64,000 nucleotides of DNA from Comamonas terrae (GTDB lineage Bacteria; Pseudomonadota; Gammaproteobacteria; Burkholderiales; Burkholderiaceae_C): NCBI RefSeq assembly GCF_001544075.1, contig NZ_BCNT01000007.1, forward strand, positions 1 through 64,000. Direction: 5' to 3'. Of this stretch, positions 31,906 through 64,000 are shown piece after piece. The notes beneath the pieces were generated by a model. It ran no database searches. It was not told where the DNA came from and saw only the letters and a list, made by a program, of their open reading frames with translations. Position 1 is the first letter of the stretch; every line of letters starts with the position of its first letter. The position numbers and the translations under genes are program-made.

Positions 31906-31911
31906 CGTGTT

Positions 31912-44172: not shown

Positions 44173-45246
44173 CTATCGCCTCGGAGCCAGGTCCGGGTAG
44201 TAGCGCTGCGCCACGTCCAGATGGGAGCGCAGCCTTCCCTTCAGCGCATTGGTGCCGATGTGCGTGAACAGCGGATTGTGGGGATCGCTTTCGGGGCCGC
44301 GCGCCAGCCGGGCCAGGTGCGGGGGCAGGTCCAGCAGGGGGACTTCCTGCGCATGCAGGCTGGGCGAGAAGAAATAGGCGATGGAGTAGCGGCTGGCTCC
44401 CGAGCGCGGCGAGACCACCCGGTGCTCGTTGGCGCGCAGATAGCCGTTGGTGGCCAGCTCCAGCATCTCCCCGATGTTCACGACAAAGGCATTCTCGCGG
44501 GGTGGCACGTCCAGCCAGCCCTGCGGGGTCAGCACCTGCAGTCCGCCCACCTTGTCCTGCAGCAGCAGGGTCAGCAGGCCGCCGTCCTTGTGGGCGCCCA
44601 CGCCCTGGTCGGGGCGCCCATGCTCCTGGCTGGGATAGCGGATGATCTTCAGGCGGTTGTTGTGCGGCGGTGCAACCAGGGCATCCAGTGCCGTGGCCGG
44701 CTGCTCCAGCGCCACCAGAAAGGCTTGCAGCAGGCGCTTGGCCACCTGGCGCGCAGCTTCCTGCCAGGCCAGGATTTCGCGCTGCAGCTCGGGAAGCTCC
44801 CCGGGCCACTGGTTGGGGCCTTGCAGCCCCCACCAGGCCGGTGTATCGGGGCTCTCGTCGATGGCAGGCAGTTCCTCGCCGAAGTCGATCTGCTCGCGCA
44901 GGTCGGGCCTCAGGCGGGTGATTTCCCCGCCCACGCCGGTATAGCCGCGGAAATGCCGGGAATTGCGGATGGCGATGCGCTCTTTGGCCTGCGGCGGCAG
45001 CTCGAAGAAGCGGCGGGAGATGGCCTGCAGCCGCTCGATCTGCGCGGTGTCTATGCCGTGCCCTTCCAGGTAGAAAAAGCCGATGTCGCGCGCGATGTGG
45101 GCCAGTCGCGCATGAAGCGGGGTGTGGCGCGTGGCGTCGCCCAGTGCCGCAAGGTCGATGACCGGCAGCGCGTCTCGCAGTGCGCTGGACGGCGCTGCAT
45201 GCCCGATGGGAGGCGCAGGGAAAATGGCGTGTGCGGCGGTGCTCAT
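44173..45246 (-). CDS. 2-oxoglutarate/Fe(II)-type dioxygenase, isopenicillin N synthase family
   Basis: 357 residues. The double-stranded beta-helix has iron ligands H219 and D221 in AHKDGG and H275 in ANEHRV, with R286 in RYSIAYFF binding the co-substrate carboxylate. The N-terminal DIN-type domain (LPVIDLAALGD...GFFYLEGHGI) is typical. In context, the enzyme could oxidise a sulfur compound to release a thiol, sulfide or sulfite for the metY-type partner. That is inference. ATG 45246 overlaps the metY stop as ATGA, so the two are translated together. Confidence 0.88.
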   Translation of the reverse strand: MSTAAHAIFPAPPIGHAAPSSALRDALPVIDLAALGDATRHTPLHARLAHIARDIGFFYLEGHGIDTAQIERLQAISRRFFELPPQAKERIAIRNSRHFRGYTGVGGEITRLRPDLREQIDFGEELPAIDESPDTPAWWGLQGPNQWPGELPELQREILAWQEAARQVAKRLLQAFLVALEQPATALDALVAPPHNNRLKIIRYPSQEHGRPDQGVGAHKDGGLLTLLLQDKVGGLQVLTPQGWLDVPPRENAFVVNIGEMLELATNGYLRANEHRVVSPRSGASRYSIAYFFSPSLHAQEVPLLDLPPHLARLARGPESDPHNPLFTHIGTNALKGRLRSHLDVAQRYYPDLAPRR

Positions 45247-46604
45247 GCAGGCTCCTGAAGTCCGTCGGCAGGGGAGGGGGATGGGCTGCTGGCGGCGGCA
45301 TGCTCCAGGGCTTGCCGCAGGTCGGCCAGCAGGTCGTCGGGATGCTCTATGCCGATGGACAGGCGCACCAGGCCCGGCGCAATGCCCACGCGCGCCAGCT
45401 CCGCATCGCTGAGCAGGTGGTGGGTGGTTTCGGCCGGTATGGCCGCCAGCGATTTGCTGTCCCCGATGTTGACCAGGCGCTGGAACAGCTGCAGCGCGTC
45501 GTAAAACTGCCGGGCCGCAGTCCTTCCGCCACGCAGTTCGAAGGACAGCAGGCCGGGGACCAGCCCGCCGCGCAGGTAGCGGCGGGCCAGTTCGCGGCCT
45601 GCCTGCCCGGCAGAGGTTGCATGGAAAACGCGTGCCACCTGGGGCTGCGCCTGCAGGAAATCCAGCACGGCCCGGGTGTTGCTGCTGATGCGCTCCATGC
45701 GCAGCGCCAGCGTCTCCAGCCCCTGCAGCAGCAAAAAGGCCGAGTGGGCAGCCAGCGTGGCGCCCGCATTGCGCAGCATGACGGTGCGCGCGCGTGCCAG
45801 CAGCGCCGCCTCGGGGTAGCGTTCGGTGAACACCACATGGTGGAAGGCCGGGTCCGGGCGCGTGAGTTGCGGGTAGCGCCGGGCCTGCGCATTCCAGTCG
45901 AAGTGGCCGCCGTCCACGATCAGTCCGCCGATGACGCAGCCATGTCCGCCTATGTATTTGGTCGCCGAGTGCACCACCACGTCGGCGCCGTGCTCCAGGG
46001 GGCGGACGAGCAGAGGCGTGGCGCTGGTATTGTCCACCACCACCGCGATGCCGTGGGCATGGGCCAGCGCGGCAACCGCGGCAATGTCCGCCACCTCCCC
46101 CGAGGGATTGGCGACGGTCTCCAGGAACACGGCCTTGGTGCGCTCTGTGATGGCCGTGTGCAGGGCATCGCTGTCGCCGCGCGCCACCACGGTGCTGGCA
46201 ATGCCGCGGCCTTGCAGCACGTGCACCACCAGGTTGTGGGTACCGCCATACAGGGCCGAGGCCAGGATCACATGGTCGCCCGACTGGGCCAGCGTGGCCA
46301 GCGTGATGTCGATGGCTGCCATGCCGGACGCCACGGCCAGCGCGGCAGCGCCGCCTTCCAGCTGGGCGATGCGTTGCTCCAGCACGGCCTGCGTGGGGTT
46401 GCCCGTGCGTGCGTACACCGGCCCTTCCTGCACCAGGTCGAACAGCTCCGCGCCGTGCTGGGCATCCTCGAACAGGAAGGATGTGGTCTGGTAGATGGGA
46501 ATCGCAGCGCTGCGCTGGTGCTGCAAGCCGTCGTAGCCCGCGTGGAGCACGATGGTGTCGGGCCGCCATGCGGCATTGCGGCCGAATGCGGGTGCCTGGC
46601 TCAT
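45243..46604 (-). CDS. O-acetylhomoserine sulfhydrylase-like PLP enzyme (Cys/Met metabolism family)
   Basis: 453 residues of the Cys/Met gamma-family. The PLP lysine is K216 in VHSATKYIGGHG, the PLP-pairing aspartate D191 in VVDNTSATP, and phosphate contacts lie in YARTGNPT and ASGMAA. Closest in layout to MetY, which makes homocysteine from O-acetylhomoserine and sulfide; a gamma-lyase cannot be excluded. It is coupled by ATGA overlaps both to the osmC gene before it and the dioxygenase after it, suggesting that sulfide is delivered and used within one pathway. Confidence 0.88.
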   Translation of the reverse strand: MSQAPAFGRNAAWRPDTIVLHAGYDGLQHQRSAAIPIYQTTSFLFEDAQHGAELFDLVQEGPVYARTGNPTQAVLEQRIAQLEGGAAALAVASGMAAIDITLATLAQSGDHVILASALYGGTHNLVVHVLQGRGIASTVVARGDSDALHTAITERTKAVFLETVANPSGEVADIAAVAALAHAHGIAVVVDNTSATPLLVRPLEHGADVVVHSATKYIGGHGCVIGGLIVDGGHFDWNAQARRYPQLTRPDPAFHHVVFTERYPEAALLARARTVMLRNAGATLAAHSAFLLLQGLETLALRMERISSNTRAVLDFLQAQPQVARVFHATSAGQAGRELARRYLRGGLVPGLLSFELRGGRTAARQFYDALQLFQRLVNIGDSKSLAAIPAETTHHLLSDAELARVGIAPGLVRLSIGIEHPDDLLADLRQALEHAAASSPSPSPADGLQEPA

Positions 46605-47176
46605 GCGGCAAGCGCTTGCCTGGGTTCGGCAGCGGCGGCCTTCGCCGGAGCTGCCGGCGTGGCGCGCACCAGGGTGCCGACGATGTGCTGCGGGTTGCGC
46701 AGCAGGTTCAGGATGGGGCAGTTCTTTTCCACGGCGGCGAACAGCTCTTCGAGCTGCGCATCCGATGCGCTGGACGCGACCCGTACTTCGTAGCGGATGT
46801 CATGCGGCCAGATGGGCGTGGACTCGTGGCCGGGATGGCCGCCGCGCGGGTCTATGGTGCCGCGCACGTCGACTTCCACGCTGTCCAGAGGTACCTGCAG
46901 CAGTGCCGCCTGGATCTCGAAGATGTGGGTGACGCAGGTGCCCAGCACGCCCAGCTGCAGCTCGGGCGAGGAGGGGCCCAGGTTGAAGCCGGCGAAGTCG
47001 TAGGGACTGTCGCTGATCGCCTGGTGCTCGCGGATGCGCAGGCGGCGGATGCCGCTGCGCCCCTCGGCGGTGACATGGGCGTGCAGCGAGGCGGCCTCGG
47101 CACGGCCTTCGGCAATGCGTTGCTGGCGCCCCAGGACGGCGTGGCGCTTGTGGTGCAGGTAGTCGTTCAGGCTCAT
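46601..47176 (-). CDS. OsmC-family protein
   Basis: 191 residues with the OsmC/Ohr fold. The redox cysteines are C81 (LGTCVTHI) and C153 (KNCPILNLL). Family members reduce organic hydroperoxides or, in the case of sulfur clusters, are thought to protect or handle reactive sulfur. A CGGAG motif lies upstream of ATG 47176. First gene of the osmC-metY-dioxygenase operon and divergent from the ABC transporter genes. The C-terminal 25 residues are Ala-rich and probably disordered. Confidence 0.85.
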   Translation of the reverse strand: MSLNDYLHHKRHAVLGRQQRIAEGRAEAASLHAHVTAEGRSGIRRLRIREHQAISDSPYDFAGFNLGPSSPELQLGVLGTCVTHIFEIQAALLQVPLDSVEVDVRGTIDPRGGHPGHESTPIWPHDIRYEVRVASSASDAQLEELFAAVEKNCPILNLLRNPQHIVGTLVRATPAAPAKAAAAEPRQALAA

Positions 47177-47401: not shown

Positions 47402-48427
47402 ATGGATGAGTTTTTGCCCATTGCGCAGCGTGCGCCCTGGACGCGGCGCCATTTCCTGGGGGCCGCGACGGCGGCGGGTTCCGTGGGCGCGGCAGGCCTG
47501 CTGCCGCTGGCCGTGCGCTCGCAGCCGCGCAAGATCACCCTGGCCTGGAGCCAGGCCAGCTTCTGCCAGGTGCCCGTGCCGATTGCGCTGGAGCGCGGCT
47601 TCTTCGAGAAGAACGGCCTGCAGGTGGAGGTGCTGAACTGGGGCGGCTCCGCCGACCAGCTGCTGGAGGCGCTGGCCACCGGCAAGGCCGAGGTCGGCGT
47701 GGGGCTGATCCACCGCTGGGTCAAGCCGCTGGAGGCGGGGCTGGATGTGAAGATCGTGGGCAGCGTGCACGGCGGCTGCCTGCGCCTGGTGGGGGTCAAC
47801 GCCGCCGGCGTGACGCAGGACGTGAGGACGCTCAAGGGCAAGGTGATCGGCGTGTCCGACCTGAACAGCCCGGCCAAGCAGTTCTACGGCATCCACCTGG
47901 CCAGAAAGGGCCTGAACATCGACAAGGATGTGGAGTGGCGCGTCTATCCGGCGGATCTGCTGGATGTGGCGGTGAAGAAGGGCGAGATCCACGCCATTGC
48001 CGACGGCGACCCCAACCTCTATCTGATCGAAAAGCGCAACCCCGGCGTGTTCACCGAACTGGGCAACAGCGCCACGGGCGAATATGCCGAGAAGATCTGC
48101 TGCGTGCTGGGAGCCAGCGCCAAGTTCGTGCGCGACGACCGCAAGAGCGCGGCGGGCGTGGTGCGCGCGCTGGCTCAGGCCTCGGACTATGTGGCCGAGA
48201 ACCCGAACGAGGCGGCCCGGATCTTTGCCCGCTACACGCCCAAGTTCGAAGTGCCGGACCTGCAGCGCCTGATCGCCGAGCTCACCTACAAGCACCATCC
48301 GCACGGCGGCCGCCTGCATGACGAGGTGCGCGACTTCGTCAGCGACTTCCGCTCTGCGGGCATTCTGAAAAAGAGCACCGACCCGGCACGCTTTGCGCGC
48401 CACATCACGCAGGATGTGCTGTCATGA
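47402..48427 (+). CDS. Tat-exported ABC substrate-binding protein (NMT1/SsuA/TauA type)
   Basis: 341 residues. A twin-arginine signal R15-R16-H-F-L precedes the hydrophobic segment. The mature protein matches NMT1/aliphatic-sulfonate binding proteins: ITLAWSQASFCQVPVPIALERGFFEKNGLQVEVLNWGGSADQLLEALATGKAEVGVG. GGAGG precedes the ATG. Genes for permease, ATPase and a cytochrome follow with overlaps. An organosulfur ligand is likely from neighbours. Tat export implies folding, or cofactor or ligand loading, before secretion. Confidence 0.9.
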   Translation: MDEFLPIAQRAPWTRRHFLGAATAAGSVGAAGLLPLAVRSQPRKITLAWSQASFCQVPVPIALERGFFEKNGLQVEVLNWGGSADQLLEALATGKAEVGVGLIHRWVKPLEAGLDVKIVGSVHGGCLRLVGVNAAGVTQDVRTLKGKVIGVSDLNSPAKQFYGIHLARKGLNIDKDVEWRVYPADLLDVAVKKGEIHAIADGDPNLYLIEKRNPGVFTELGNSATGEYAEKICCVLGASAKFVRDDRKSAAGVVRALAQASDYVAENPNEAARIFARYTPKFEVPDLQRLIAELTYKHHPHGGRLHDEVRDFVSDFRSAGILKKSTDPARFARHITQDVLS

Positions 48428-49467
48428 GCAGCATACAAGCCATGGCGGAGCGGGGGGCGGCCCCGGCCCTTGCCCAGGCGCGTGTGCAGCCGCCTGCCGC
48501 GTCGGTTCGCACAGGCCCGTGGCGCCAGGGCCTGGCCGCGGCGCTGGCCTGGCTGCTGCTGGGCGTGCTGACCTGGCTGTGGCCGAACAAGGAAATCGGC
48601 TTCAGCGACTGGGCCTACACCACGGAATTTGCCGCGCTCACGGCCGCCGTCGCGGTGCTGCTGGCGGCGTTGGCCCTGGCGGGAGGGCGGGCCGGGCGGG
48701 TTTTGCGCTGGCTGCGTCCGGCAGGCGCCTGGCTGATCGCGGCGCCCGTGCTGCTGGCCGTGTGGGAGGTGGCAACGGCCAAGCTGGGCCTGCTGCCCCC
48801 GCCGTTCTTCGCACCGCCGCAAAGCCTGCTGGAGGTCTACCTGGACGACACGGCCCGGCTCGGCATTTCGGTGGCCTACTCGCTGCGCCTGCTGCTGCAG
48901 GGCATCGTGATCGGCAGCGCGGTGGGTTTTGTCACCGGCGTATGGGTGGGCTGGTCGCGCGTGGCCGGCTACTGGGTGCATCCGCTGCTGCGCTTTCTGG
49001 GGCCGGTGCCGGCATCGGCGCTGCTGCCGCTGGCCTTCTTCTTTGCGCCCAGCAGCCATAGCGCGGCCGTGTTCCTGATCGCGCTGGCCACCTTCTTCCC
49101 GGTGGCCGTGCTGACCTGGTCCGGCGTGGCCAACGTCAGCAAGAGCTATTACGACGTGGCCCGCACCCTCGGGGCGTCGGAATGGTTTCTGGTGCTGCGC
49201 GTGGCCATTCCTGCCGCGCTGCCCCAGGTCTTCGTGGGCCTGTTCATGGGGCTGGGCGCTTCGTTCTCCGTGCTGATCACGGCCGAGATGATGGGCGTGA
49301 AGGCGGGATTGGGCTGGTATCTGCAATGGGCCCAGGGCTGGGCCGCCTACGCCAACATGTATGGCGCCCTGCTGGTGATGGCGGTGCTGTGCTCGGGCCT
49401 GATCACCCTGCTGTTCGCCGTGCGCGACCGGCTGCTGGGCTGGCAGAAAGGAACCGTGAAATGGTGA
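48424..49467 (+). CDS. ABC transporter permease (SsuC/TauC type)
   Basis: 347 residues, longer than the usual 260 because of an N-terminal extension with two extra membrane helices (about residues 35-85). The core has six helices and the EAA loop DVARTLGASEWFLVLRVAIPAALPQVFVGL. It is the membrane channel for the sulfonate-type importer. Its ATG overlaps the binding-protein stop as ATGA. Confidence 0.9.
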   Translation: MSSIQAMAERGAAPALAQARVQPPAASVRTGPWRQGLAAALAWLLLGVLTWLWPNKEIGFSDWAYTTEFAALTAAVAVLLAALALAGGRAGRVLRWLRPAGAWLIAAPVLLAVWEVATAKLGLLPPPFFAPPQSLLEVYLDDTARLGISVAYSLRLLLQGIVIGSAVGFVTGVWVGWSRVAGYWVHPLLRFLGPVPASALLPLAFFFAPSSHSAAVFLIALATFFPVAVLTWSGVANVSKSYYDVARTLGASEWFLVLRVAIPAALPQVFVGLFMGLGASFSVLITAEMMGVKAGLGWYLQWAQGWAAYANMYGALLVMAVLCSGLITLLFAVRDRLLGWQKGTVKW

Positions 49468-50270
49468 GCGCTGCAAACGAGCTTCGGCGGCCTGCACAGG
49501 CCGGCGGCACTGCCGGCGCGCGCATCGACATTGCCGATGTGTCGCACGATTTTGCCCAGCCCGGCGGGGCCAGCCTGCCGGTGCTGGACCATGTCGGCCT
49601 GCAGGTGAGGCCCGGCGAGTTCGTGGCGCTGCTGGGGCCCAGCGGCTGCGGCAAGTCCACGCTGCTGCGCCTGGTGGCGGGGCTGGAGCCGCCGGCCAGC
49701 GGCCGGGTCACGCAGGACGGCCGGCCCATCGAGCGGCCCGATCCCTCGCGCATCGTGGTCTTCCAGGACCCGACCCTGTTCCCCTGGCGCACGGTGCGCG
49801 ACAACGTGGCCCTGGGCCTGCAGGCCCGCAAGGTGCCCAGGGACCAGCATGCGCGCATCGACGAAGCGCTGGCGCTGGTGGGGCTGTCCGAATTCGCGGC
49901 CAGCTATCCGCACCAGCTCTCGGGCGGCATGGCCCAGCGCGTGGCCCTGGCGCGCGCGCTGGTCAACGAGCCGCAGCTGCTGATACTGGACGAACCGCTG
50001 GGCAAGCTCGATTCGCTGACCCGGCTGTCCATGCAGGGCGAGCTGCTCAGGCTGTGGCAGCGCACCGGCTTCTCGGTGCTGCTGGTCACGCACGATGTGG
50101 AAGAGGCGCTGTTCCTGGCCGACCGCGTGGTGGTGTTCTCGCAGCGTCCGGCGCGCACGGTGGCGGAGCTGGCCGTGGACCTGCCCCATCCGCGCCATCG
50201 CACGCAGCCGCGCTTTGTCGAGCTGCGCCAGCAGGCGCTGCACCATCTCGGACTGGATGACGTGGCCTGA
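49461..50270 (+). CDS. ABC transporter ATP-binding protein (SsuB/TauB type)
   Basis: 269 residues: Walker A GPSGCGKST, Q-loop VVFQDPTLFPW, signature LSGGMAQR and Walker B LLILDEPLGKLD, followed by the H-loop THDVEEALFLADRV. Closest to the nitrate/sulfonate/taurine ATPase group. The ATG at 49461 overlaps the permease end by 7 nt; GTG at 49464 is an alternative. The stop shares a base with the cytochrome start. Confidence 0.92.
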   Translation: MVSAANELRRPAQAGGTAGARIDIADVSHDFAQPGGASLPVLDHVGLQVRPGEFVALLGPSGCGKSTLLRLVAGLEPPASGRVTQDGRPIERPDPSRIVVFQDPTLFPWRTVRDNVALGLQARKVPRDQHARIDEALALVGLSEFAASYPHQLSGGMAQRVALARALVNEPQLLILDEPLGKLDSLTRLSMQGELLRLWQRTGFSVLLVTHDVEEALFLADRVVVFSQRPARTVAELAVDLPHPRHRTQPRFVELRQQALHHLGLDDVA

Positions 50271-51466
50271 TGCCCGAGCGCGTAGCGGATGCCCCCTGGC
50301 TGATCTGGCTGCTGGAAGCAATCCATCGCGGGCAGGTGGGCCTGCTGCAGCTGCTGTACGGCCTGGGCTGGACGGGCGAAGTCGATGGGCAGCCGGCCTG
50401 GCCGTGGACGCAGCGCCTGGCCGGCGAATACCTGCTGGTGGACCAGGCCCAGGCGCGCCAGCTGGCCTGGAGCCTGGGTGCCATCGCTGCGGCGCTGGTC
50501 CTGCTGGCTCTCGCAATGCTGTGGCGGCGCAGGCGCCGCCGGAGCCTGTGCCTGCTGGGGATGGCGCTGGCCGCCGTCGTGCTGGCACCCTGGCCTTCAC
50601 GCCAGGTGGTGCTGGTGCAGGCCGTGCCTTCGAGTTTTCACCGCAATCCCTTGCCGTTCACCGACGCGGCCATCGTCCGCGGTGCTGCGCAATACCGCCG
50701 CCTGTGCCTGCAGTGCCATGGTGCGGCGGGTGACGGCCAGGGGCCGGAGGCGTCGGCCCAGCCCGTGTGGCCGCCCAGCTTCATCGGCCCGCTGCTCTGG
50801 CGCCGTGCGGACGGCGAGCTGCTGCAGGCGGTGCGCTATGGCGTGCGGGACGGCCAGGGGCGCCCGACCATGGCCGGCTTTGCCGGTCAGCTGTCGGTGG
50901 CGCAGAGCTGGGAGCTGCTGCATTTTCTGCGTGCCCAGGCCGCGGGCCGGCTGCTGAATGCCACCGGCAACTGGGCCCAGCCGGTTGCCCTGCCGGACAT
51001 GCCGCTGCGCTGCCACCGCCCCGACAAGACGCGGGTACGGGACTGGCGGGGGCAGCGCCTGCGGCTGGTCAGTCTGGCCGATGCCCGTCAGCTGCCGCCC
51101 GATCCGCGCATGGTGACGCTGTGGCTGCCGCCTGCCGGACCGCTGCCGGCCCTTCCCGAACAAGTGGATTGCATCGTCGTCTCGGGCGTGGTGGCGCAGC
51201 AGGCCCTGGGCCTGGTGAACGGCGATGCCGCGATGCGCGATGTGCAGCTGCTGGCCGACAAGGACGGCTGGCTGAGGGCGCGCAACAGCCGGGCCGTGGG
51301 CAACTGGAATGACGAAGACCTGCTGTGCCGCAGCACCCAAGACACACAAGCGCCGGCTACCCCTGCGGCGCCGGTGGCCGAGGACGGCCTGACCCGCATC
51401 CTGCGGCGCATGGACCTGGAGCCGGTGCGCTATGTCAAGGGCGGGCGGGTACATGGCCTGCGCTGA
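50270..51466 (+). CDS. Membrane-anchored c-type cytochrome in the ABC operon
   Basis: 398 residues. Two membrane segments (about 65-84 and 94-108) precede a periplasmic domain with one haem site, C146-LQ-C149-H150, and likely axial Met in GRPTMAGF. The remainder after residue 230 has no motif I recognise and contains several more cysteines. TGATG overlap with the ATPase gene means it is translated with the transporter. Transporter operons do not normally include a cytochrome; it may take electrons from periplasmic oxidation of the transported compound. That role is inference. Confidence 0.8.
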   Translation: MPERVADAPWLIWLLEAIHRGQVGLLQLLYGLGWTGEVDGQPAWPWTQRLAGEYLLVDQAQARQLAWSLGAIAAALVLLALAMLWRRRRRRSLCLLGMALAAVVLAPWPSRQVVLVQAVPSSFHRNPLPFTDAAIVRGAAQYRRLCLQCHGAAGDGQGPEASAQPVWPPSFIGPLLWRRADGELLQAVRYGVRDGQGRPTMAGFAGQLSVAQSWELLHFLRAQAAGRLLNATGNWAQPVALPDMPLRCHRPDKTRVRDWRGQRLRLVSLADARQLPPDPRMVTLWLPPAGPLPALPEQVDCIVVSGVVAQQALGLVNGDAAMRDVQLLADKDGWLRARNSRAVGNWNDEDLLCRSTQDTQAPATPAAPVAEDGLTRILRRMDLEPVRYVKGGRVHGLR

Positions 51467-51498
51467 TGCCCTGCGGCGCGCGGTCCCGGTACACGGCT

Positions 51499-53153: not shown

Positions 53154-53200
53154 GAAAAAAAGAGCTTTCTTCGCTTGCCCGCCAAGCGAAGAAAGCTCTT
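53154..53200 (-). terminator. Terminator of the VOC-metQ-metN-metI operon
   Basis: An exact 18-bp stem, AAGAGCTTTCTTCGCTTG (53160-53177) with its complement at 53183-53200, has a 5-nt loop. On the minus strand it is followed by a run of seven or eight T. It begins 47 nt past the metI stop codon. The arms echo the dispersed AGCT...GCTTG hairpin family of this genome. Confidence 0.93.
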
Positions 53201-55861: not shown

Positions 55862-56680
55862 CTAAGCAAATACGCTTTGGGTATGAGTGGCCTGCGGGGT
55901 GGCATCACCCTGCGGCAGCAGCGCGATGGAGGCGCCGTGCGTGTCGCCCTGCGTGATGGCGCCCAGCGGGCCGGCCTGCGTGGTGTACAGGCCGATGGCG
56001 AACGGGCCCTCGCCCTGCTGCGCCAGGCGGGCGGCGGCGGCGCGGCTGGCGCTGGCACTCTCCAGCTTCAGCCAGGTGCTGCCCAGCGGCAGGCTGGCGC
56101 TGGCGCTGCCGTTGCCGGCAACCGCGTCATCCTGCAGGTCCAGCAGCGCGCGGTAGCGCTCAAGCGTCGCGGCGACATCGTGCACGGCAATGCGCAGATG
56201 GGCCACGCCCTGCACGCCATTGGCATGTTCGCGCACGCGGCCCTCGGGCACGCGCAGGGCGCGCGGCGTCACGTCGCCGCACAGAAAGGGCAGGTCCGGC
56301 GTGGCGGGCCGTGCGTTCTGCCATCGCAGTTCCACGCCGTCGGGGCGCAGCCGGCCGCCGTCGACGGGCGGCTGGTAGGCCAGGCCGCGCGACAGTGCCT
56401 GCGCCACGACCTGGGGGGTGGAGGAAGGCAGCAGCGCGAAATCCACGATGCCCGGGCCGAAACGGGCCAGCTTGGACCACCAGGGGTGGACTTCTTCGGG
56501 GGCTTTCCAGGCGATCAGCTCGAAGTAGGAGCCGTCCTGGAACACCACCAGCGCATTGTGGGTGGCCCGCCCCGGATGGTCTCCGCCGGGCGTCACCGTG
56601 AAGCCCAGGCTGCGGTAGTCGGCGATGGCTTGCTGCAGGTCGTGCACGGCGATCACGATGTGGTCCAGAGGCAATGGCAT
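55862..56680 (-). CDS. Glyoxalase-like (VOC superfamily) protein upstream of metQ
   Basis: 272 residues with two VOC-like halves. [33 protein letters not shown] opens the first (glyoxalase-like domain type) and [23 protein letters not shown] the second. AGGAG lies 8 nt before ATG 56680; earlier starts are less supported. It is 77 nt upstream of metQ on the same strand and probably begins that operon. Chemistry unknown. Confidence 0.83.
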
Positions 56681-56755
56681 GAGGCTTTCTCCTGTGTGTG
56701 AAAGCGCCATGCTGGTGCCGCGGCCTGCGCAGGGCAAATGCCGGATGCGGCTTTG

Positions 56756-56768: not shown

Positions 56769-56929
56769 TGCCGGATGCGCCAGGGGTGGGCATATCTGCT
56801 GGCTGCATATCCAAGTGCGAAAACAGCAGTTCGGGAAAGAGGGTGGCCTTCCTAGCATGCAAGCCATCCGGAGAGCTTTTCCGGTTCCTGCGTTACAGCG
56901 CCTCGACGGCATGAAGGGTGGATGATCTA

Positions 56930-58594
56930 GTGCAAAAACAAAGCAGAAGAAACAACGGCTGGCGGTGGCTGGCCGCAATGGCCGCGGGTGTCTGGCTGGC
57001 GGGCTGCTCGCCGCAGGGCGCGGGCAAGGCCGGCACGCAGCAGGCAGGGGTGGCGCAGGGGGGAGAGCTGGTGTACCTGGAGCAGCAGGCGCATACCAGC
57101 CTGTATCCGCCCGCCGGAGGCTTCTATCCCAATGGCGGCGTGCTCAACCAGATCACGGACAAGCTGACCTACCAGGATCCGCAGACGCTGGAAATCCAGC
57201 CCTGGATCGCCGAGTCCTGGAGCATCAACGGCAATGCCACGGAATTCACCTTCAAGCTGCGTCCCGGGGTCAGCTTCTCGGACGGCACGCCGCTGGACGC
57301 CACCGCCGTGGCCCGCAATTTCGATACCTACGGCCTGGGCAACAAGGCCTTGAAGCTGCCGGTCTCGGAGGTCATCAACAACTATGAGCGCAGCGAAGTC
57401 CTGGACCCGCTGACGGTGAAGTTCTACTTCAGCAAGCCGTCGCCGGGCTTTCTGCAGGGCACGTCGGTCATCGGCTCGGGACTGGTGTCGCTGGCCACGC
57501 TGGCCCGGCCGTTCGAGGAACTGGGCGACGCCACGCGCATCATCGGCTCCGGCCCGTTTGTGGTAGCCAGCGAAACCCTGGGCAAGGAGCTGCTGCTCAA
57601 GGCCCGCGCCGACTACAACTGGGGCCCGGCCAGGCATGCGCACCAGGGCCGGGCGCGGCTGGACAGCATCCGCTTCGTGGTCACGCCCGAAGACAGCGTG
57701 CGCATCGGCGCCCTGCTGGCGGGCCAGGCCGGCCTGATCCGCCAGGTCCAGGCCTATGACGAAAAGCGCGTGCAGGACCAGGGCTTGCGGATCTACGCGC
57801 CGTCCACGCGCGGCGTGAACAACAGCATCGCTTTCCGCCCCGACAATCCGCTCGTGGCCGATCTGCGCGTGCGCAAGGCGCTGCTGCACGGCACGAACGC
57901 GGCCGAGGTGGTGCAGACCCTGTTCTCGGCCCACTATCCGCAGGCGACATCGGTGGTGGCCCGGTCGGCGGCCGGCTATGTGGACCTGTCGTCCGAGCTC
58001 AAATTCGATCCCGAGCTGTCCCGCCGCCTGCTGGACGAGGCCGGCTGGACCCTGGGGGCCGGCGGATTGCGCCAGAAGGACGGCCAGGAGCTGGTGCTGA
58101 CGGCCTACGAATCCCTGCCGCAGCCGCAGAACAAGGAAACGCTGCAGCTGGTGGCCCAGCAGTGGAGCAGGCTGGGCGTCAAGCTCAATGTGCTGGCCGG
58201 CGATGCGGGCAGCAGAACGCTGGACAGCCTGGATCCCGCCCGGACGCCGGTGGCGCCGAACATGGTGGGCCGCGCCGACCCGGACGTGATCAAGAGCAAC
58301 TACTACCCCACCAACCGCAATGTGCTGCTGCAAAAGGGCGGCGTCAGCCAGAAGGTCAACAGCTTCGTGGATGCCAGGCTCAACGGCCTGCTGGATGCGA
58401 TTGCCGCCGAGACCGACGCGGCCAGGCGCTTGCAGCTCACGGGGGACGTGCAGCGCTACCTGATCGAGCAGGCCTACGTGATTCCGATCTTCGAGGAGCC
58501 GCAGGCCTTCGCGGGCGCCCCCTGGGTCAGGGATGTGGGCTTCGAGGCCGTGGGCCGGCCCAGCTTCTACGCCACCTGGCTGGCCAAGCGATGA
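56930..58594 (+). CDS. Peptide-type ABC substrate-binding lipoprotein (KPN_01854-like)
   Basis: About 554 residues. A lipoprotein signal ends in VWLAGC. The body has the SBP_bac_5 pattern: NGGVLNQITDKLTYQDPQTLEIQPWIAESWSINGNATEFTFKLRPGVSFSDGTPLDATAV and LRVRKALLHGTNAAEVVQTLF. The layout of the following genes matches the cluster typified by KPN_01853-01858 of Klebsiella. There is no ATG; GTG at 56930 has GGGTGG at good distance and is preferred over GTG 56918. Ligand unknown, possibly a peptide-like organosulfur compound. Confidence 0.88.
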   Translation: MQKQSRRNNGWRWLAAMAAGVWLAGCSPQGAGKAGTQQAGVAQGGELVYLEQQAHTSLYPPAGGFYPNGGVLNQITDKLTYQDPQTLEIQPWIAESWSINGNATEFTFKLRPGVSFSDGTPLDATAVARNFDTYGLGNKALKLPVSEVINNYERSEVLDPLTVKFYFSKPSPGFLQGTSVIGSGLVSLATLARPFEELGDATRIIGSGPFVVASETLGKELLLKARADYNWGPARHAHQGRARLDSIRFVVTPEDSVRIGALLAGQAGLIRQVQAYDEKRVQDQGLRIYAPSTRGVNNSIAFRPDNPLVADLRVRKALLHGTNAAEVVQTLFSAHYPQATSVVARSAAGYVDLSSELKFDPELSRRLLDEAGWTLGAGGLRQKDGQELVLTAYESLPQPQNKETLQLVAQQWSRLGVKLNVLAGDAGSRTLDSLDPARTPVAPNMVGRADPDVIKSNYYPTNRNVLLQKGGVSQKVNSFVDARLNGLLDAIAAETDAARRLQLTGDVQRYLIEQAYVIPIFEEPQAFAGAPWVRDVGFEAVGRPSFYATWLAKR

Positions 58595-59529
58595 CTGCCT
58601 ATCTGTTGCGGCGCACCGGCCAGGCCCTGCTGGTGCTGTGGGCGGCCTTCTCGGCATCGTTCGTGCTGCTGCAGCTCATGCCCGGCGATGCGGTGCTGAT
58701 CAAGTTCCTCAACCCCGACCTGGGCCTGGGGCCGGAGCAGATCGCCGAGATCCAGGCGGCCTACGGCGCCGACCAGCCGGTCTGGCGCCAGTACCTGCAC
58801 ACGCTGGGGCAGTTCCTGTCCGGGCATTTCGGCTACTCGCTGCAGGCCGGCGTGCCGGTCAGCCAGGGCCTGGCCACCAATCTTCCGCCCACGCTGCGCC
58901 TGGCATCGATGGGGCTGGCGGCCGCGCTGCTGCTGGCCGTGGGGCTGGCGCTGCTGGCCAGCCTGGTGCGGTGGCGGCCCGTGCGCGCGCTGCTGCAGTC
59001 GCTGCCCCCGCTTTTCGCCTCGATTCCGGTGTTCTGGCTGGGCATCATGCTGATCCAGTGGGTGTCCTTTCGCCTGGGCTGGGTGCCGGTCATCAATCCG
59101 GGACCCTGGCAGGGGCTGATCCTGCCGACGCTGACGCTGGCCGTACCCATCTCCGCGCCGCTGGCGCAGATCCTGATGCGCAACCTGGACGCCGCGCTGG
59201 CCCAGCCCTATGTGGCCGTGGCGCGGGCCAAGGGCGCGTCGCAGCTGCACGTGCTGCTGCGGCATGCGGCGCGCAACGCGGTCCTGCCCGTGCTGACCAT
59301 GGGCGGGATGCTGTTCGGCGAGCTGCTGGCCGGCGCCGTGGTGACCGAGGCGGTCTTCGGCCTCAACGGCCTGGGCAGCCTGACCCAGCAGGCCGTGGGC
59401 AACCAGGATACGGCCGTGCTGCAGGCGGTGGTGATGGTGTCCGCCACGGCTTTTGTGACCATCAACCTGATCGTGGACCTGCTCTATCCCTGGCTGGATC
59501 CGCGGCTTGCCCATGCGGCGGGAAGCTGA
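58591..59529 (+). CDS. ABC transporter permease 1 (DppB type)
   Basis: 312 residues, six membrane helices, with the DppB/OppB N-terminus LLRRTGQALLVLWAAFSASFVLLQLMPGD and EAA-type loop YVAVARAKGASQLHVLLRHAARNAVLPVLTMGG. Start overlaps the binding-protein stop (ATGA). Confidence 0.92.
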   Translation: MTAYLLRRTGQALLVLWAAFSASFVLLQLMPGDAVLIKFLNPDLGLGPEQIAEIQAAYGADQPVWRQYLHTLGQFLSGHFGYSLQAGVPVSQGLATNLPPTLRLASMGLAAALLLAVGLALLASLVRWRPVRALLQSLPPLFASIPVFWLGIMLIQWVSFRLGWVPVINPGPWQGLILPTLTLAVPISAPLAQILMRNLDAALAQPYVAVARAKGASQLHVLLRHAARNAVLPVLTMGGMLFGELLAGAVVTEAVFGLNGLGSLTQQAVGNQDTAVLQAVVMVSATAFVTINLIVDLLYPWLDPRLAHAAGS

Positions 59530-59533
59530 AACC

Positions 59534-60472
59534 ATGAATGCACTGACGCAAAAGAAAGGGCTGGCGCTGCAGCTGCCGCCAGCCACCCCGTTGCCGCGGG
59601 CCGGGGTGCAGCCGCTTGCTGCGGCCCCGCAGGTTTGCAAAAAACCATGGCGGCTGCCATCCGTTCTGCGGCGTGTTGTTCGCATGCCGCCGGGGCTGTG
59701 GCTGGCCTGGGGCGTGCTGGTCCTGGTGCTGCTGTGGGCGCTGGTGCCGGGCTGGTTTGCCGGCCAGGATCCGCTGGCGGGCCTGGCCGGCCAGCAGCTG
59801 CGCGCCCCCGGCGCAGGCCATTGGCTGGGCACCGATGCGCTGGGCCGCGATGTCTGGGCCCGCGTGGTCCATGGCGCGGTGCACTCGTTGTCCGGGGCCC
59901 TGGTCGCCGTGGGCGTGGGCCTGTTCGGCGGCACCGCGCTGGGTCTGCTCGCAGGCGCGGCCGGAGGCCGCCTCGACGATGCGCTGATGCGCCTGGTGGA
60001 CGTGCTGCTGGCCGTACCTGCGCTGCTGCTGTCGCTGACCATCATCATCGTGCTGGGCTTCGGCACGGTGAACGCGGCCATTGCCGTGGGCGTGGCATCG
60101 GTGGCCGGCTTTGCCAGGCTGGTGCGTTCCGAAGTCGTGCGTGTGCGCCGCACGGAGTACGTGGAAGCGGCCTTCGGCAGCGGCGGGCGCTTCGGCGCCG
60201 TGCTGTGGCGCCATGTGCTGCCCAATTCGCTGACATCGGTGGTGGCGCTGGCGGCGCTGCAGTTCGGCACGGCCATCCTGGCCATTGCCACGCTGGGCTT
60301 CCTCGGCTACGGCGCACCGCCGCCCACTCCGGAATGGGGGCTGCTGATCGCGGAAGGGCGCAACTACCTGGCCACCGCCTGGTGGCTGACCACGGTGCCC
60401 GGGCTGGTGGTGGTGGCCGTGGTGCTGGCGGCCAACCGTATCGGCGTGGCGCTGACGGGGGCACCGTCATGA
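59534..60472 (+). CDS. ABC transporter permease 2 (DppC type)
   Basis: 312 residues. An unusual proline-rich 45-residue N-terminal tail precedes the DppC core GAGHWLGTDALGRDVWARVVHGAVHSL and EAA loop YVEAAFGSGGRFGAVLWRHVLPNSLTSVVALAAL. It pairs with permease 1. GGAA precedes ATG 59534; the upstream frame is a remnant of the permease 1 end. Confidence 0.92.
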   Translation: MNALTQKKGLALQLPPATPLPRAGVQPLAAAPQVCKKPWRLPSVLRRVVRMPPGLWLAWGVLVLVLLWALVPGWFAGQDPLAGLAGQQLRAPGAGHWLGTDALGRDVWARVVHGAVHSLSGALVAVGVGLFGGTALGLLAGAAGGRLDDALMRLVDVLLAVPALLLSLTIIIVLGFGTVNAAIAVGVASVAGFARLVRSEVVRVRRTEYVEAAFGSGGRFGAVLWRHVLPNSLTSVVALAALQFGTAILAIATLGFLGYGAPPPTPEWGLLIAEGRNYLATAWWLTTVPGLVVVAVVLAANRIGVALTGAPS

Positions 60473-62220
60473 GCGCCTGGCAGCAATGGCGGCAGCGCCT
60501 GCTGCGCGCGGCAGGGGCGGGTCCGGCTGCGTGCGCGTCCGCAGCGCCTGCGGGCGGCGCGGTGCTGGAGATCGACGATCTGCAGATCGCCTACCGCGAA
60601 GACGGCCGGCTGCGCCGCGTGGTGCACGGCGTCTCGCTGGCGGTGCATCCCGGCGAGGTGGTGGCTCTGGTGGGGGAATCGGGCTCCGGCAAATCGACCA
60701 CTTCGCAGGCGGCCATCGGCCTGCTGCCGGCCAACGGTCAGGTGGTGGGGGGCCGCATACGCCTGCTGGGCGAGGATGTGACCCATGCCGGCGAGTCGCA
60801 ATGGCGCGGCCTGCGCGGCCGCGTGGTGAGCCTGGTGCCGCAGGATCCGACGGCATCGCTGAACCCGGTGCGCACCATCGGCGCCCAGGTGGCCGAGGTG
60901 CTGCAGCTGCATGGCTGCAGGGACCGCGCAGCCATCGAGCGTCAGGTGGTGGAGCTGCTGCGCAAGGTGGGGCTGACGCGGCCCGAGCTGCGCGTGCGCC
61001 AGTATCCGCACGAGCTGTCGGGCGGCATGAAGCAGCGCGTGCTGATCGCCATGGCCGTGGCGCTGCGGCCGGCACTGATCATTGCCGACGAGCCCACGAG
61101 CGCGCTGGACGTGACGGTGCAGCGCCGCATCCTGGATCTGATCGACACGCTGCGGCGCGAGACCGGCACCGCCGTGCTGCTGGTCACGCACGACCTGGGC
61201 GTGGCCGCCGATCGGGCCCATCGCATCGTGGTGCTGCGCCAGGGGCAGGTACAGGAAGCCGGGGACACGCTGGAGGTGTTGCGCCAGCCGCAAAGCGCCT
61301 ATGCGCGCCAGCTGCTGGCCGATGCGCCGGCGCTGTCGGCGGCCCTGCCGCGGCCATTGCCGCAGGAGGCGGGAGAGCCCGACTGGGCCGTGCAGGTCCA
61401 GGGGCTGTGCCAGGAGTTCGTCGTGCCGGGCCAGCGGGCACCGTTCAAGGCCGTGGACGGCGTGGGCTTTCGGGTGCGGCGCGGCAGCACGCATGCCATC
61501 GTCGGCGAATCGGGCTCGGGCAAGACCACGACCATCCGGGCGCTGGCCGGCCTGCTGCGGCCCACGGGCGGCCGGATCCGCATCGCGGGCGAGGACGTGA
61601 CCGCGCTGCGTGGCGAGGCGCTGCGCCGGTTCCGCCGCAAGGTTCAGCTGGTCTATCAGAACCCCTTTGCCTCGCTGGACCCGCGCCAGACGGTCTTCGC
61701 GATTGTCGAGGAGCCGCTGCGCAACTTCGGTGCATTGCCGGCGGCCGAGCGCCGCCGGCGGGTGGAAGAGACCCTGGCCCGCGTGGGCCTGGCGCCCGAG
61801 CTGCAGCAACGCCGCCCGCATGCGCTGTCCGGCGGCCAGCGCCAGCGCGTGGCCATTGCGCGCGCCCTGGTGCTGCAGCCCGAGGTGCTGGTGCTGGACG
61901 AAGCCGTCTCGGCGCTGGACGTGACGGTGCAGGCCCAGATCCTGCGCCTGCTGGAAGAGCTGCAGCAGCAGCTGCGGCTGACCTATGTTTTCGTGACGCA
62001 CGACCTGTCGGTGGTGCGCCAGATCGCCCACACCGTCTCCGTGCTGCAGCACGGCCAGGTGGTGGAGGCGGGCACGGTGGAGCAGGTCTTCACCCAGCCC
62101 GAAAGCCATTACACCCGTGAACTGATTGCCGCCATCCCCGGCACAAGGAGTCTTGATTTTGTCCATCCCCCCAATTCCCCGGAAAAAACGCCTGGGCTTC
62201 TTCAGCCGCTTGCTGGATGA
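60469..62220 (+). CDS. Fused double ABC ATPase (DppD-DppF type)
   Basis: 583 residues with two complete ABC modules in one chain. The first has Walker A GESGSGKST, LSGGMKQR and ADEPTSALD; the second GESGSGKTT, LSGGQRQR and LDEAVSALD. In most Dpp/Opp systems these are two proteins. Each module ends with the oligopeptide-type C-terminal tail. ATGA overlap with permease 2. The last 62 nt overlap the next gene in another frame. Confidence 0.92.
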   Translation: MSAWQQWRQRLLRAAGAGPAACASAAPAGGAVLEIDDLQIAYREDGRLRRVVHGVSLAVHPGEVVALVGESGSGKSTTSQAAIGLLPANGQVVGGRIRLLGEDVTHAGESQWRGLRGRVVSLVPQDPTASLNPVRTIGAQVAEVLQLHGCRDRAAIERQVVELLRKVGLTRPELRVRQYPHELSGGMKQRVLIAMAVALRPALIIADEPTSALDVTVQRRILDLIDTLRRETGTAVLLVTHDLGVAADRAHRIVVLRQGQVQEAGDTLEVLRQPQSAYARQLLADAPALSAALPRPLPQEAGEPDWAVQVQGLCQEFVVPGQRAPFKAVDGVGFRVRRGSTHAIVGESGSGKTTTIRALAGLLRPTGGRIRIAGEDVTALRGEALRRFRRKVQLVYQNPFASLDPRQTVFAIVEEPLRNFGALPAAERRRRVEETLARVGLAPELQQRRPHALSGGQRQRVAIARALVLQPEVLVLDEAVSALDVTVQAQILRLLEELQQQLRLTYVFVTHDLSVVRQIAHTVSVLQHGQVVEAGTVEQVFTQPESHYTRELIAAIPGTRSLDFVHPPNSPEKTPGLLQPLAG

Positions 62221-63256
62221 TGCGCCTGCCGGCGAGCGCTATCGCCTGGTGACCGAACAGATCGCCCATGCCGAAGCCCTGGGCTTCGATTCCGCCTGGG
62301 TGGCGCAGCACCATTTCCACGAAAACGAGGGCGGCCTGCCGTCGCCCCTGGTGTTCCTGGCCCATGTGGCGCAGCGCACGCAGCGCATACGCCTGGGCAC
62401 CGGCGTGGTGACGCTGACCATGGAAAACGCCATCCGCGTGGCCGAGGACGCCGCCGTGCTCGACCTGCTGTCGGGCGGGCGGCTGGAAGTGGGGCTGGGC
62501 ACCGGCGGCACGGCGGAATCCTTCGAGGCCTTCGGCGTGGATGGCGGCGAGCGCGGCGCCGTATTCGGGCGCAATCTGCAGCGGCTGCGCGCGGCCTGGC
62601 GCGGCGAGGTGCTGCCGGGCGGCGTGCGCGTCTATCCCCAGGCGCCGCAGCTGCTGCAACGCCTGTGGCAGGCCACGTTCTCGGTGGAAGGGGCCAGGCG
62701 CGCCGGTGCGGCCGGCGAGGGGCTGATGCTCTCGCGCACGCAGCCGCGGCCGGACCAGGCGCCGGGACTTTCCCTTTCCGGGATCCAGAACCCCATCATC
62801 GACGCCTACCTGGCCGCGCTGCCGCTGGGCGCTGCGCCGCGCATCCTGGGGTCGCGTACGCTGTTCGTGGCCGACCGCCGCGAGGAAGCACTGCACTGGG
62901 CCGAAATCGGGCTGCGCCGCCTGGCCCTGCGCCACGCCGGCGCCTTGGCCGGCCCGTCCTCCGCGGGCCTGTTCGCGCGCGTCGATCCGCAGGCGCCGCT
63001 GGAGCAGCTGATCGCCGCCTATGACGTGCACCTGGGCACGCCCGGCGACGTGATCGCCTCGCTGCAGGCCGATACGGCACTGGCGCGCGCCACGGACCTG
63101 GTCTTTCAGGTGCATTCCATCGATCCGCCGCACCAGGCCATCCTGCGCTCGCTGGAGCTGACCGCCTCCGTGGTGGCGCCGGCCCTGGGCTGGGCCGGCC
63201 CGCCGGGCACCGCTTGCGCATCCACAGCCGCCGAACCCGCGCTGCACGCAGCCTGA
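62159..63256 (+). CDS. FMN-dependent luciferase-like monooxygenase (KPN_01858-like)
   Basis: 365 residues of the bacterial-luciferase-like fold: LGFFSRLLDDAPAGERYRLVTEQIAHAEALGFDSAWVAQHHF, TQRIRLGTGVVTL and DLLSGGRLEVGLGTG. Such enzymes oxidise carbon-sulfur or other bonds with reduced FMN from a partner reductase, which is not seen in the window. The start is a TTG at 62159, with AAGGAG 8 nt before it, inside the upstream gene. Earlier TTG codons lack this. It probably breaks down the imported compound. Confidence 0.87.
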   Translation: MSIPPIPRKKRLGFFSRLLDDAPAGERYRLVTEQIAHAEALGFDSAWVAQHHFHENEGGLPSPLVFLAHVAQRTQRIRLGTGVVTLTMENAIRVAEDAAVLDLLSGGRLEVGLGTGGTAESFEAFGVDGGERGAVFGRNLQRLRAAWRGEVLPGGVRVYPQAPQLLQRLWQATFSVEGARRAGAAGEGLMLSRTQPRPDQAPGLSLSGIQNPIIDAYLAALPLGAAPRILGSRTLFVADRREEALHWAEIGLRRLALRHAGALAGPSSAGLFARVDPQAPLEQLIAAYDVHLGTPGDVIASLQADTALARATDLVFQVHSIDPPHQAILRSLELTASVVAPALGWAGPPGTACASTAAEPALHAA

Positions 63257-63270
63257 GAAAAGGACACCCT

Positions 63271-64000
63271 ATGACCGAATTGCTGCAAGAGCCCCAGGCG
63301 CCTGCTGTATCCGGGCAGCCTGCCGATGTGATCGACCAGCTGGCCGGCATTGCCGCAGGCAGCTGGCTGGACGGCCTGCGCCGGGCGCGCCCTGAAACCC
63401 GTGCCCAGGCCCAGAAAACCCATCAAGCCCTGTTCTCGCCCGCGGCGCCGGCGGCCGGCCAGGTGGCGCCGGCCGAGCGCCATGCGGTGGCGGCCTTTGT
63501 GTCCGGCCTGCACCGGCAGCCGCATGCGGCGGACTTCCACCTGCGTGCGCTGCAGGCGCTGGCGCCGCAGTGGGCCGGGGCCGTGGCGCAGGCGGCAGAT
63601 GCCGGCCGGACCCGGGGCCCTTACGGCCGCTATCCCGCAGGCCCGCTGGCGATTGAAGACCAGGTGGGCCCCGAGTTCGCGCTGCCCGAGGCCCTGCAGG
63701 CCGTGCTGGGCACCCGCTTGGTAGCCGGCTTGCGGCATGCGCATTTCCTGGTCTTTCATCCGCGCGATGCGCAGCCCGGGCGGTTGCGCGCGCTGGAGGC
63801 TGCGGGCTGGACGGCCGACGATATCGTCGTGCTCTCTCAGCTGGTGGCTTTTCTGAGCTTCCAGCTGCGCGTGGTGGCCGGCCTGCAGGTGCTGGAGGCC
63901 GGCTGGGACAGCGATGCACCCGTGCCGCAGCGCAGCGCCTGCGCAAAGGCGGCGCCGGCGCAGGAGACCGCGGCGCCGGGCGCCGAGCCCGTGGTCTTCA
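63271..64000 (+). CDS. CMD-domain protein, Avi_7170-like (partial, runs past window end)
   Basis: At least 243 residues, open to the end. ATG follows AAGGACACCCT. Residues 15-55 (ADVIDQLAGIAAGSWLDGLR) and the region GAIEDQVG-like to SQLVAFLSFQLRVVAGLQVL match the carboxymuconolactone-decarboxylase/AhpD-like group found beside KPN_01858-type monooxygenases. The usual CxxC redox pair is absent in the visible part; the only cysteine is C224 in an Ala/Pro-rich linker. That linker suggests a second, perhaps peroxidase, domain follows. Confidence 0.75.
   Translation, partial: MTELLQEPQAPAVSGQPADVIDQLAGIAAGSWLDGLRRARPETRAQAQKTHQALFSPAAPAAGQVAPAERHAVAAFVSGLHRQPHAADFHLRALQALAPQWAGAVAQAADAGRTRGPYGRYPAGPLAIEDQVGPEFALPEALQAVLGTRLVAGLRHAHFLVFHPRDAQPGRLRALEAAGWTADDIVVLSQLVAFLSFQLRVVAGLQVLEAGWDSDAPVPQRSACAKAAPAQETAAPGAEPVVF

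Follow-up and report, generated by a model that had tools for sequence, protein, structure and literature searches.

What could hold together three ATP-binding cassette (ABC) importers, an OsmC-family protein, a MetY-type enzyme, two kinds of oxygenase and a CysB-like regulator in one 20-kb run of genes? We asked this of a gene island in the window, a stretch of Comamonas terrae DNA comprising the first 64 kb of a 261,734-base contig (NZ_BCNT01000007.1; genome 4.72 Mb). Genes were identified by Pfam and NCBIfam family scans together with a purpose-made codon-usage gene caller. The island comprises 19 genes in five units, runs from 44173 to 581 bases beyond the window end and carries the CysB-family regulator in its middle. 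An earlier note on this DNA had proposed that these genes act as one programme for using organic sulfur when sulfate is scarce. Our analysis supports that proposal. Judging from sequence, we put the probability that the island is a sulfur-starvation programme scavenging organic sulfur at roughly 85%, and it is very likely a new, organosulfur-scavenging composite of partly named modules.

Operon 1 (minus strand) encodes OsmC, MetY and a 2-oxoglutarate (2OG)-Fe(II) oxygenase, and operon 2 (plus) a binding protein, a permease, an ATPase and a cytochrome c. Operon 3 (minus) encodes a VOC protein and the CysB-like regulator, and operon 4 (minus) a Glyoxalase_3 protein, MetQ, MetN and MetI. Operon 5 (plus) encodes a TIGR04028 substrate-binding protein (SBP5), two permeases, a fused ATPase, a luciferase-like monooxygenase (LLM) and a CMD/AhpD fusion.

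Cysteine and methionine content of the island proteins

PMC7661421 describes sulfur-acquisition proteins as tending to be free of cysteine and methionine. We therefore counted these residues (Cys+Met) after the start residue and took as background 297 proteins called in the window's first 43 kb and in 18 further stretches of the genome. The 19 island proteins averaged 1.35% Cys+Met and the background 3.24% (Mann-Whitney p 9e-9); because the background sample contained the genome's ssu operon, this contrast is conservative. None of 278 runs of 19 consecutive sampled genes was as low as the island (minimum 1.76%). Fifteen of the 19 proteins fell below the 10th background percentile, and the remaining four were the SsuC-like permease (18th percentile), the DppB-like permease (24th), MetI (49th) and the cytochrome c (50th). 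MetQ has no Cys and no Met in 271 amino acids after its start, the 2OG oxygenase has no Cys and one Met in 356, and SBP5 has three such residues in 557. The flanks lie higher, at 2.2-5.0% for eight genes on the left and 2.4-8.2% for five on the right.

The genome's own ssu operon, located via SsuD, was also sulfur-poor. SsuA has 0.28% Cys+Met, a second SsuA-like protein and a Mop protein 0% each, SsuD and SsuE 1.02% each, SsuB 0.98% and SsuC 1.75%. The main CysB of the genome has 2.88%, and its two other MetY-type proteins have 1.17%, nearly as poor as the island, and 2.32%, which is not. Beside the ssu operon (C1:478000-496000), we also observed open reading frames (ORFs) of 288 and 348 amino acids that lack Cys and Met after the start and are possibly further sulfur-starvation genes.

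Recurrence of the modules around OsmC

A profile search of genome contigs with an OsmC alignment gave 107 confirmed relatives, of which the best 80 were examined and 27 weaker ones left out. Closest relatives are over-represented among these loci, many of them congeners, and the 80 do not represent 80 independent events; gene clusters new to the analysis were named from one scanned member each. The nearest named relative, at 97%, is in a Comamonas metagenome-assembled genome (L057). Outside that locus, the OsmC subfamily shows 58-82% identical segments and accompanies either half of the island. At least one of three importer types is present in 74 of the 80 stretches: SBP5-type in 26, ssu-type in 19 and branched-chain-type in 30. 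The six without an importer are L057, itself a 4-kb contig, L115, L118, L119, L129 and L132.

Glyoxalase_3, LLM, CMD/AhpD and the regulator recur as partners of OsmC, with a Glyoxalase_3 relative in 49/80 stretches. At loci with a branched-chain-type importer, the OsmC gene sits between those for permease and ATPase and is mostly followed by Glyoxalase_3 (25/30), and the same LLM (7/30) and a CysB-like regulator (16/30) can also be present. The Nonomuraea endophytica locus reads SBP5-B-C-DF-LLM-CMD-AhpD-Glyoxalase_3-OsmC. A cysteine-dioxygenase-like gene was found in nine stretches, all of them ssu-type Herbaspirillum loci, and rhodanese in 11, ten of them ssu-type.

We also searched a family draw of 120 genomes, the C. 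terrae genome included. OsmC of the island type occurs in five others (G003, G016, G018, G022 and G085), and a binding protein above the TIGR04028 cut-off in four of these (all but G018). In G022, tandem duplicate TIGR04028 binding-protein genes precede a single permease set. The cytochrome c is found in seven other genomes at eight loci, two of them in G018. Importer genes precede it at seven loci, and at one there is a binding protein only. Seven of the eight, G016 being the exception, have sulfur-type neighbours, namely rhodanese, cysteine-dioxygenase-like, LLM, OsmC, MetY or acyl-CoA-dehydrogenase-like genes, the last of which we take to be of the SfnB/DszC kind.

Most relatives carry one half of the island only. 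However, large parts recur together in several genera. G018 and Diaphorobacter caeni have metQNI, the ssu-cytochrome operon and OsmC-MetY-2OG oxygenase together. A single run in Delftia tsuruhatensis combines cytochrome-ssu, MetY, 2OG oxygenase, metQNI, a VOC protein and the regulator (70%); its OsmC lies in a separate SBP5 locus. In Comamonas avium, the ssu-cytochrome operon, OsmC-MetY-2OG oxygenase and the TIGR04028 cassette share one stretch, without metNIQ, Glyoxalase_3 or the regulator. A plasmid of Agrobacterium vitis carries a 2OG oxygenase gene (product 46% identical) directly after the AhpD gene of a TIGR04028 cassette, and a MetQ/NlpA-type protein (34% identical) is encoded upstream. 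The earlier note had called for a comparison of gene order across Comamonadaceae; across genera, the same genes recur together. Because of this recurrence, and because Cys+Met content sets the island apart from its 13 flanking genes, the grouping goes beyond chance. In the genomes compared, the two halves are linked by OsmC, the CysB-like regulator, Glyoxalase_3 and the 2OG oxygenase, in support of one programme.

Composition of relatives and plasmid cassettes

Low sulfur content extends to these relatives. In the related OsmC loci, mean Cys+Met was 0.43% for SBP5 (n=28), 0.53% for LLM (n=33), 0.43% for Glyoxalase_3 (n=49), 0.48% for the fused ATPase (n=25), 0.75% (n=26) and 0.83% (n=28) for the permeases, 1.09% for OsmC (n=80), 0.39% for the branched-chain-type binding protein (n=30) and 0.64% for the cysteine-dioxygenase-like protein (n=9). 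The 875 other ORFs of these loci averaged 2.66%; of the 74 loci with sufficient genes for the comparison, 69 had system proteins poorer than the proteins around them. The cytochrome c (3.35%, n=16) and MetI (4.38%, n=2) were not poorer.

LLM relatives (E up to 1e-60) are encoded on 123 plasmid records in PLSDB, 64 of them from Pantoea. Six records were opened, and five carry the importer-LLM-CMD/AhpD set as annotated, while the Paracoccus record has LLM-CMD-AhpD only. Cassette genes of A. vitis, Sinorhizobium americanum, Erwinia sp. and Paracoccus denitrificans have 0-1.5% Cys+Met, as do those of Pantoea agglomerans except for one permease (2.56%). SBP5 lacks both residues after the start in Pantoea (544 amino acids) and Erwinia (542), and CMD lacks them in all three unfused plasmid cases. 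Two proteins encoded beside the A. vitis cassette, one MetQ-type and one amino-acid-binding, have 0% each, consistent with a role in sulfur use; in Erwinia, an unrelated sugar-binding protein beside the cassette is also poor (0.57%).

Class-matched controls gave means of 2.38% for 13 SBP5-like paralogues, compared with 0.19-0.54% for cassette SBP5 (n=5), and 2.96% for 14 permease paralogues, compared with 0.33-2.56% for cassette permeases (n=4; the highest is the window's own). Two binding-protein paralogues (0 and 0.56%) matched the low values of the cassette. TIGR04027 is rare, occurring in 8 of 299 genomes sampled across the phylum (C. terrae included), and the cassette is found in alpha-, beta- and gammaproteobacteria and in actinobacteria. 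Cys/Met depletion affects both halves of the island, and the genome's ssu operon and relatives from other classes show it too. It supports a role in sulfur scavenging, and does so independently of annotation.

The CysB-like regulator and promoter elements

The genome encodes two CysB-family proteins, one of them the island regulator (51499..52434, minus strand). It passes the CysB-family model NF009327 (448.3 bits, cut-off 402), as the earlier label of a CysB/Cbl-type regulator had implied, but falls short of both equivalogs, CysB (NF009326, 379.7 bits, cut-off 436) and Cbl (NF009324, 378.6 bits, cut-off 491). Among 17 further genomes, two or more relatives (E up to 1e-60) were found in 16, where identity to the closer copy is 57-75%; the actinobacterium in this set has none. 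In three (G125, G126 and G127), the closer and second copies are nearly alike (57-58 and 54-55%), leaving orthology uncertain.

For 12 genomes, we retrieved the genomic context of the closer copy. In four, an ssu operon is adjacent or nearby: the copy adjoins ssuB in Comamonas testosteroni (L145) and is no more than 5 kb from ssuB in L140, L150 and L151. SsuD passes TIGR03565 in all four; SsuE and SsuA were examined in C. testosteroni. In Delftia and Variovorax paradoxus, the relative sits inside clusters of island modules, and the remaining six contexts showed no SsuD-type gene. In C. terrae, the regulator is in the island and the ssu operon elsewhere. The regulator gene is preceded by that of a VOC protein (52431..52835, minus strand; PF00903 above cut-off), and a 28%-identical VOC protein precedes it in Delftia too. 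A regulatory role is known for SsuR in Burkholderia.

The two divergent promoter regions of the island, P1 (47177..47401) and P2 (56738..56917), were pooled with regions upstream of OsmC in which the neighbouring gene is divergent and 60-600 bases away (36 of the 80 loci), giving 38 regions in all. ATATGC was the most enriched 6-mer, with 78 copies in 13.2 kb and at least one in 33/38 regions, compared with 44 copies in 136 kb of 595 other intergenic regions. It was present in 18/20 SBP5-type and 13/16 ssu-type regions, and in several promoter regions one copy lies about 50 bp from a GCATATGC palindrome. P1 and P2 hold 6 of the window's 14 copies, in P1 at 47249 and 47251 (halves of one palindrome), 47264 and 47314, and in P2 at 56790 and 56805.

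A genome-wide CysB box was rejected, the paired element being found at two places and a control pattern at one. The second place (L137, 7762-7804 on C3) lies between genes for another LysR protein and a transporter; read by eye, the neighbourhood suggests purine catabolism, and we did not take this promoter up as sulfur related. Riboswitch control of metY or the met genes was likewise rejected, Rfam at gathering thresholds giving only two tRNAs in the window. Consensus scans of the window came near shuffled expectation for promoters (2 vs 1.2) and terminators (10 vs 7.9). The terminator scan missed a hairpin with a U-run after metI (53160..53200, minus strand; 18-bp arms at 53160 and 53183), which folds at -32.8 kcal/mol (z -6.8) and is likely the intrinsic terminator of operon 4.

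Genes of the island and comparison with known systems

Family scans recovered all of the earlier note's gene types, namely three ABC importers, OsmC, MetY, an Fe(II) dioxygenase, two VOC-superfamily proteins, LLM and CMD. Its five tight operons were also borne out, genes within a unit overlapping by 1-62 bp (throughout operons 1, 2 and 3 and most of operon 5) or lying less than 80 bp apart; each unit is presumed to be a single transcript.

In operon 1 (minus strand), OsmC (46601..47176; PF02566, 48.8 bits, cut-off 27.5) has two cysteines, C81 and C153, that are invariant in an alignment of 5 sequences and that we take to be the catalytic pair. MetY (45243..46604), an O-acetylhomoserine/O-acetylserine sulfhydrylase type, scores 525.3 bits against TIGR01326 (cut-off 495.1) and overlaps both neighbours by 4 bp. 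For the 2OG oxygenase (44173..45246), a TauD/AtsK identity was rejected, as DIOX_N (PF14226, 106.5 bits) and 2OG-FeII_Oxy (PF03171, 95.1 bits) are its only domains at E up to 1e-5.

Operon 2 (plus strand) begins with an NMT1/SsuA-like binding protein (47402..48427; PF09084 above cut-off) with a Tat-type signal (TIGR01409, 22.2 bits, cut-off 16.7), followed by the SsuC-like permease (48424..49467; PF00528) and a nitrate/sulfonate/taurine-type ATPase (49461..50270; PF00005; TIGR01184, 245 bits, below the cut-off of 291.8). Its last gene, omitted from the earlier gene list, encodes a membrane-anchored mono-haem cytochrome c with a C-terminal thioredoxin-like domain (50270..51466). This protein also ends ssu-type ABC operons in eight family-draw genomes, C. 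terrae included, and in Herbaspirillum. The importer was called sulfonate-type, which stands at Pfam level, but the binding protein reaches only 63 bits against the SsuA-family model TIGR01728 (cut-off 163.5). With the ssuEADCB operon, the island shares a sulfonate-type importer, a relative of the regulator and the sulfur-sparing composition; it differs in this score, in the cytochrome c, in lacking SsuD and SsuE and in having an LLM of a different family. The four genes are the same as those of ABC importer-cytochrome c operons found beside rhodanese and cysteine-dioxygenase-like genes, although here the partner operon is OsmC-MetY-2OG oxygenase. We know of no name for this operon type.

Operon 4 (minus strand) encodes Glyoxalase_3 (55862..56737; PF13468, 137.7 bits), MetQ (54966..55784; PF03180, 230.8 bits), MetN (53884..54957; PF00005) and MetI (53247..53900; PF00528). 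The last three form a three-gene set with an NlpA-family binding protein, as in the MetNIQ methionine importer. However, all three fall below curated cut-offs (MetQ 204.2 bits against TIGR00363, cut-off 228.85; MetN 310.1 against TIGR02314, cut-off 499.7; MetI 199.4 against PRK10782, cut-off 212), so that methionine-type also holds at Pfam level only. With its start codon as called, MetQ has no Cys at all and hence no lipobox cysteine; presumably, it is not a lipoprotein, unlike usual NlpA family members. Cys is also absent from the MetQ relatives called in D. caeni (L060), in L115 and on the A. vitis plasmid.

Operon 5 (plus strand) passes all four cut-offs of the NCBIfam cassette TIGR04028/04027/04029/04030 (the KPN_01854, KPN_01858, Avi_7170 and Avi_7169 families). 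SBP5 (56918..58594) scores 859.4 bits against TIGR04028 (cut-off 468.5), and LLM (62159..63256) scores 532.9 bits against TIGR04027 (cut-off 412.9), measured on the ORF from 62126. What had been called a CMD protein does contain CMD, but is a fusion of TIGR04029 (185.3 bits, cut-off 100.75) with the AhpD-like TIGR04030 (272.5 bits, cut-off 233.15) that starts at 63271 and continues 581 bases past the window end at 64000. The permeases are of peptide/nickel type, B (DppB-like, 58591..59529; best NCBIfam model Opp2B, 253.5 bits, below the cut-off of 350) and C (59507..60472; PF00528; Opp2C, 226.6 bits, below 300). The DppD-DppF-type fused double ATPase (60469..62220) matches most of the 25 models shown in two stretches of its sequence.

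Gene order in operon 5 is that of the cassette on plasmids of Sinorhizobium, Roseateles and Agrobacterium. In C. terrae, CMD and AhpD form one fused protein, as seemingly in Pantoea and Erwinia, Glyoxalase_3 is divergent and OsmC is in another operon of the island. NCBIfam classes the TIGR04027-04030 models as hypothetical equivalogs whose names state no function, and we found no paper linking the cassette to sulfur in the open-licence literature, subscription journals and preprints being outside the search. The earlier view that no described system has this combination is thus true of the full combination only, because operon 5 already corresponds to named families and large parts of the island recur in C. 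avium, Diaphorobacter and Delftia.

To the left, the island is flanked by a YchF-type GTPase gene and to the right by NrtR- and NadC-like genes, the latter labelled from reading translations by eye only. Two tandem tRNA-Met (CAT) genes lie at 31703-31988 of the window.

Proposed pathway and alternative explanations

If the island is a sulfur-starvation programme, its three importers (sulfonate-, MetNIQ- and peptide-type) would bring in different organosulfur compounds. LLM and the 2OG oxygenase would break C-S bonds oxidatively, reduced flavin coming from SsuE of the separate ssu operon. OsmC and the AhpD-like CxxC protein would handle an intermediate that the routes have in common (a thiol, persulfide or peroxide), and MetY would transfer sulfide or thiol, once released, to an O-acetylated acceptor. 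At low sulfate or cysteine, the operons would be turned on by the SsuR/Cbl-like CysB-family paralogue. Binding of the regulator to the ATATGC element, the order of steps and the substrates are likewise proposals.

Since three unrelated importers can be plugged into one OsmC-centred core, the routes would lead to one common intermediate, which we suggest only tentatively. Equally provisional, at somewhat under an even chance, is the broader proposal that the TIGR04027-04030 cassette with OsmC, Glyoxalase_3 and the 2OG oxygenase forms an undescribed organosulfur desulfurisation pathway in which the importers share the OsmC core and an intermediate such as a thiol or persulfide.

Several observations weigh against a sulfur-scavenging role. 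The cytochrome c (3.27% Cys+Met) and MetI (3.24%) of the island are not sulfur-poor, and neither, as a group, are the branched-chain-type ATPases of related loci (2.60%, n=49). There is no flavin reductase gene in the island. No SsuD-type gene was near the regulator relative in 8 of the 12 contexts. The ATATGC enrichment is inflated by common descent of the compared promoter regions, and the element is nearly absent from branched-chain-type loci (any copy in 6 of 30 regions upstream of the binding-protein gene). In the genome, the paired form occurs at P1 and one unrelated LysR promoter, compared with one occurrence of the reversed control pattern. In Klebsiella pneumoniae, KPN_01858 was higher under iron limitation (PMC7194016). 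Finally, LLM is 60% identical, an orthologue-level match, to PCX02514 of Klebsiella sp. PCX (PDB 8k74), which PMC11354265 presents as a poly(acrylic acid) monooxygenase in vitro. That paper also reports NADPH dependence and no reaction with FMNH2, a direct result against reduced-flavin use for that enzyme and that substrate. Activity on a sulfur-free polymer, though slow and in vitro, comes near to what the earlier note said would refute the sulfur idea. MsuD is described in PMC8234197.

An alternative that also accepts sulfur is that the island consists of two or three sulfur-starvation modules with nothing but a regulator in common and adjacent by chance, the cassette and the ssu-cytochrome/MetY cluster treating different compounds with no common intermediate. 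The halves are indeed apart in most relatives, Delftia has them in two places, and SBP5-type and ssu-type importers occur together in a single one of the 80 OsmC stretches, that of C. avium (L058). However, the same OsmC subfamily accompanies either half, the 2OG oxygenase recurs after the A. vitis cassette, and C. avium joins both halves in one stretch. We consider this alternative rather unlikely.

Defence against oxidants or thiol stress, with low Cys+Met protecting the proteins from oxidation and the importers secondary, would account for OsmC, the AhpD-like protein and the two glyoxalase-superfamily proteins, which are typical of peroxide and electrophile defence. Yet depletion is among the strongest in importer proteins (SBP5, MetQ), reaches the same degree in the ssu operon, and the regulator belongs to the CysB family, making this explanation very unlikely.

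Still less probable is a carbon or polymer role for operon 5, such as poly(acrylic acid) oxidation, for which the structure 8k74 and cleavage in vitro with NADPH speak (PMC11354265). The reported kcat of PCX02514 is 0.00214 per s, and the cassette includes an importer for solutes and is found together with OsmC and, in Variovorax, with a CysB-like regulator. PCX02514 itself has no Cys and 2 Met in 324 aligned residues, as expected of a sulfur-starvation protein. Context and composition here point to sulfur, with the polymer activity as a side reaction under the desulfurisation proposal. The least probable alternative, in which the operon responds to metal limitation and its peptide-type importer is for a nickel-metallophore or opine, draws on NikA as the best solved relative of SBP5 and on the iron response of KPN_01858, but a NikA identity was rejected (132.8 bits, cut-off 393), the composition is sulfur-sparing, and TauC, a sulfur-starvation importer, appears in the same iron-limitation list.

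Implications

A sulfur-scavenging role would offer a testable function for the named cassette TIGR04027-04030, to which none has been assigned so far, and it puts the physiological reading of the published enzyme PCX02514 in doubt. It also draws attention to an ABC-importer-linked cytochrome c with a thioredoxin-like domain, whose role, to our knowledge, nobody has stated. More generally, these data show that the elemental composition of proteins can hint at the nutrient role of uncharacterised operons.

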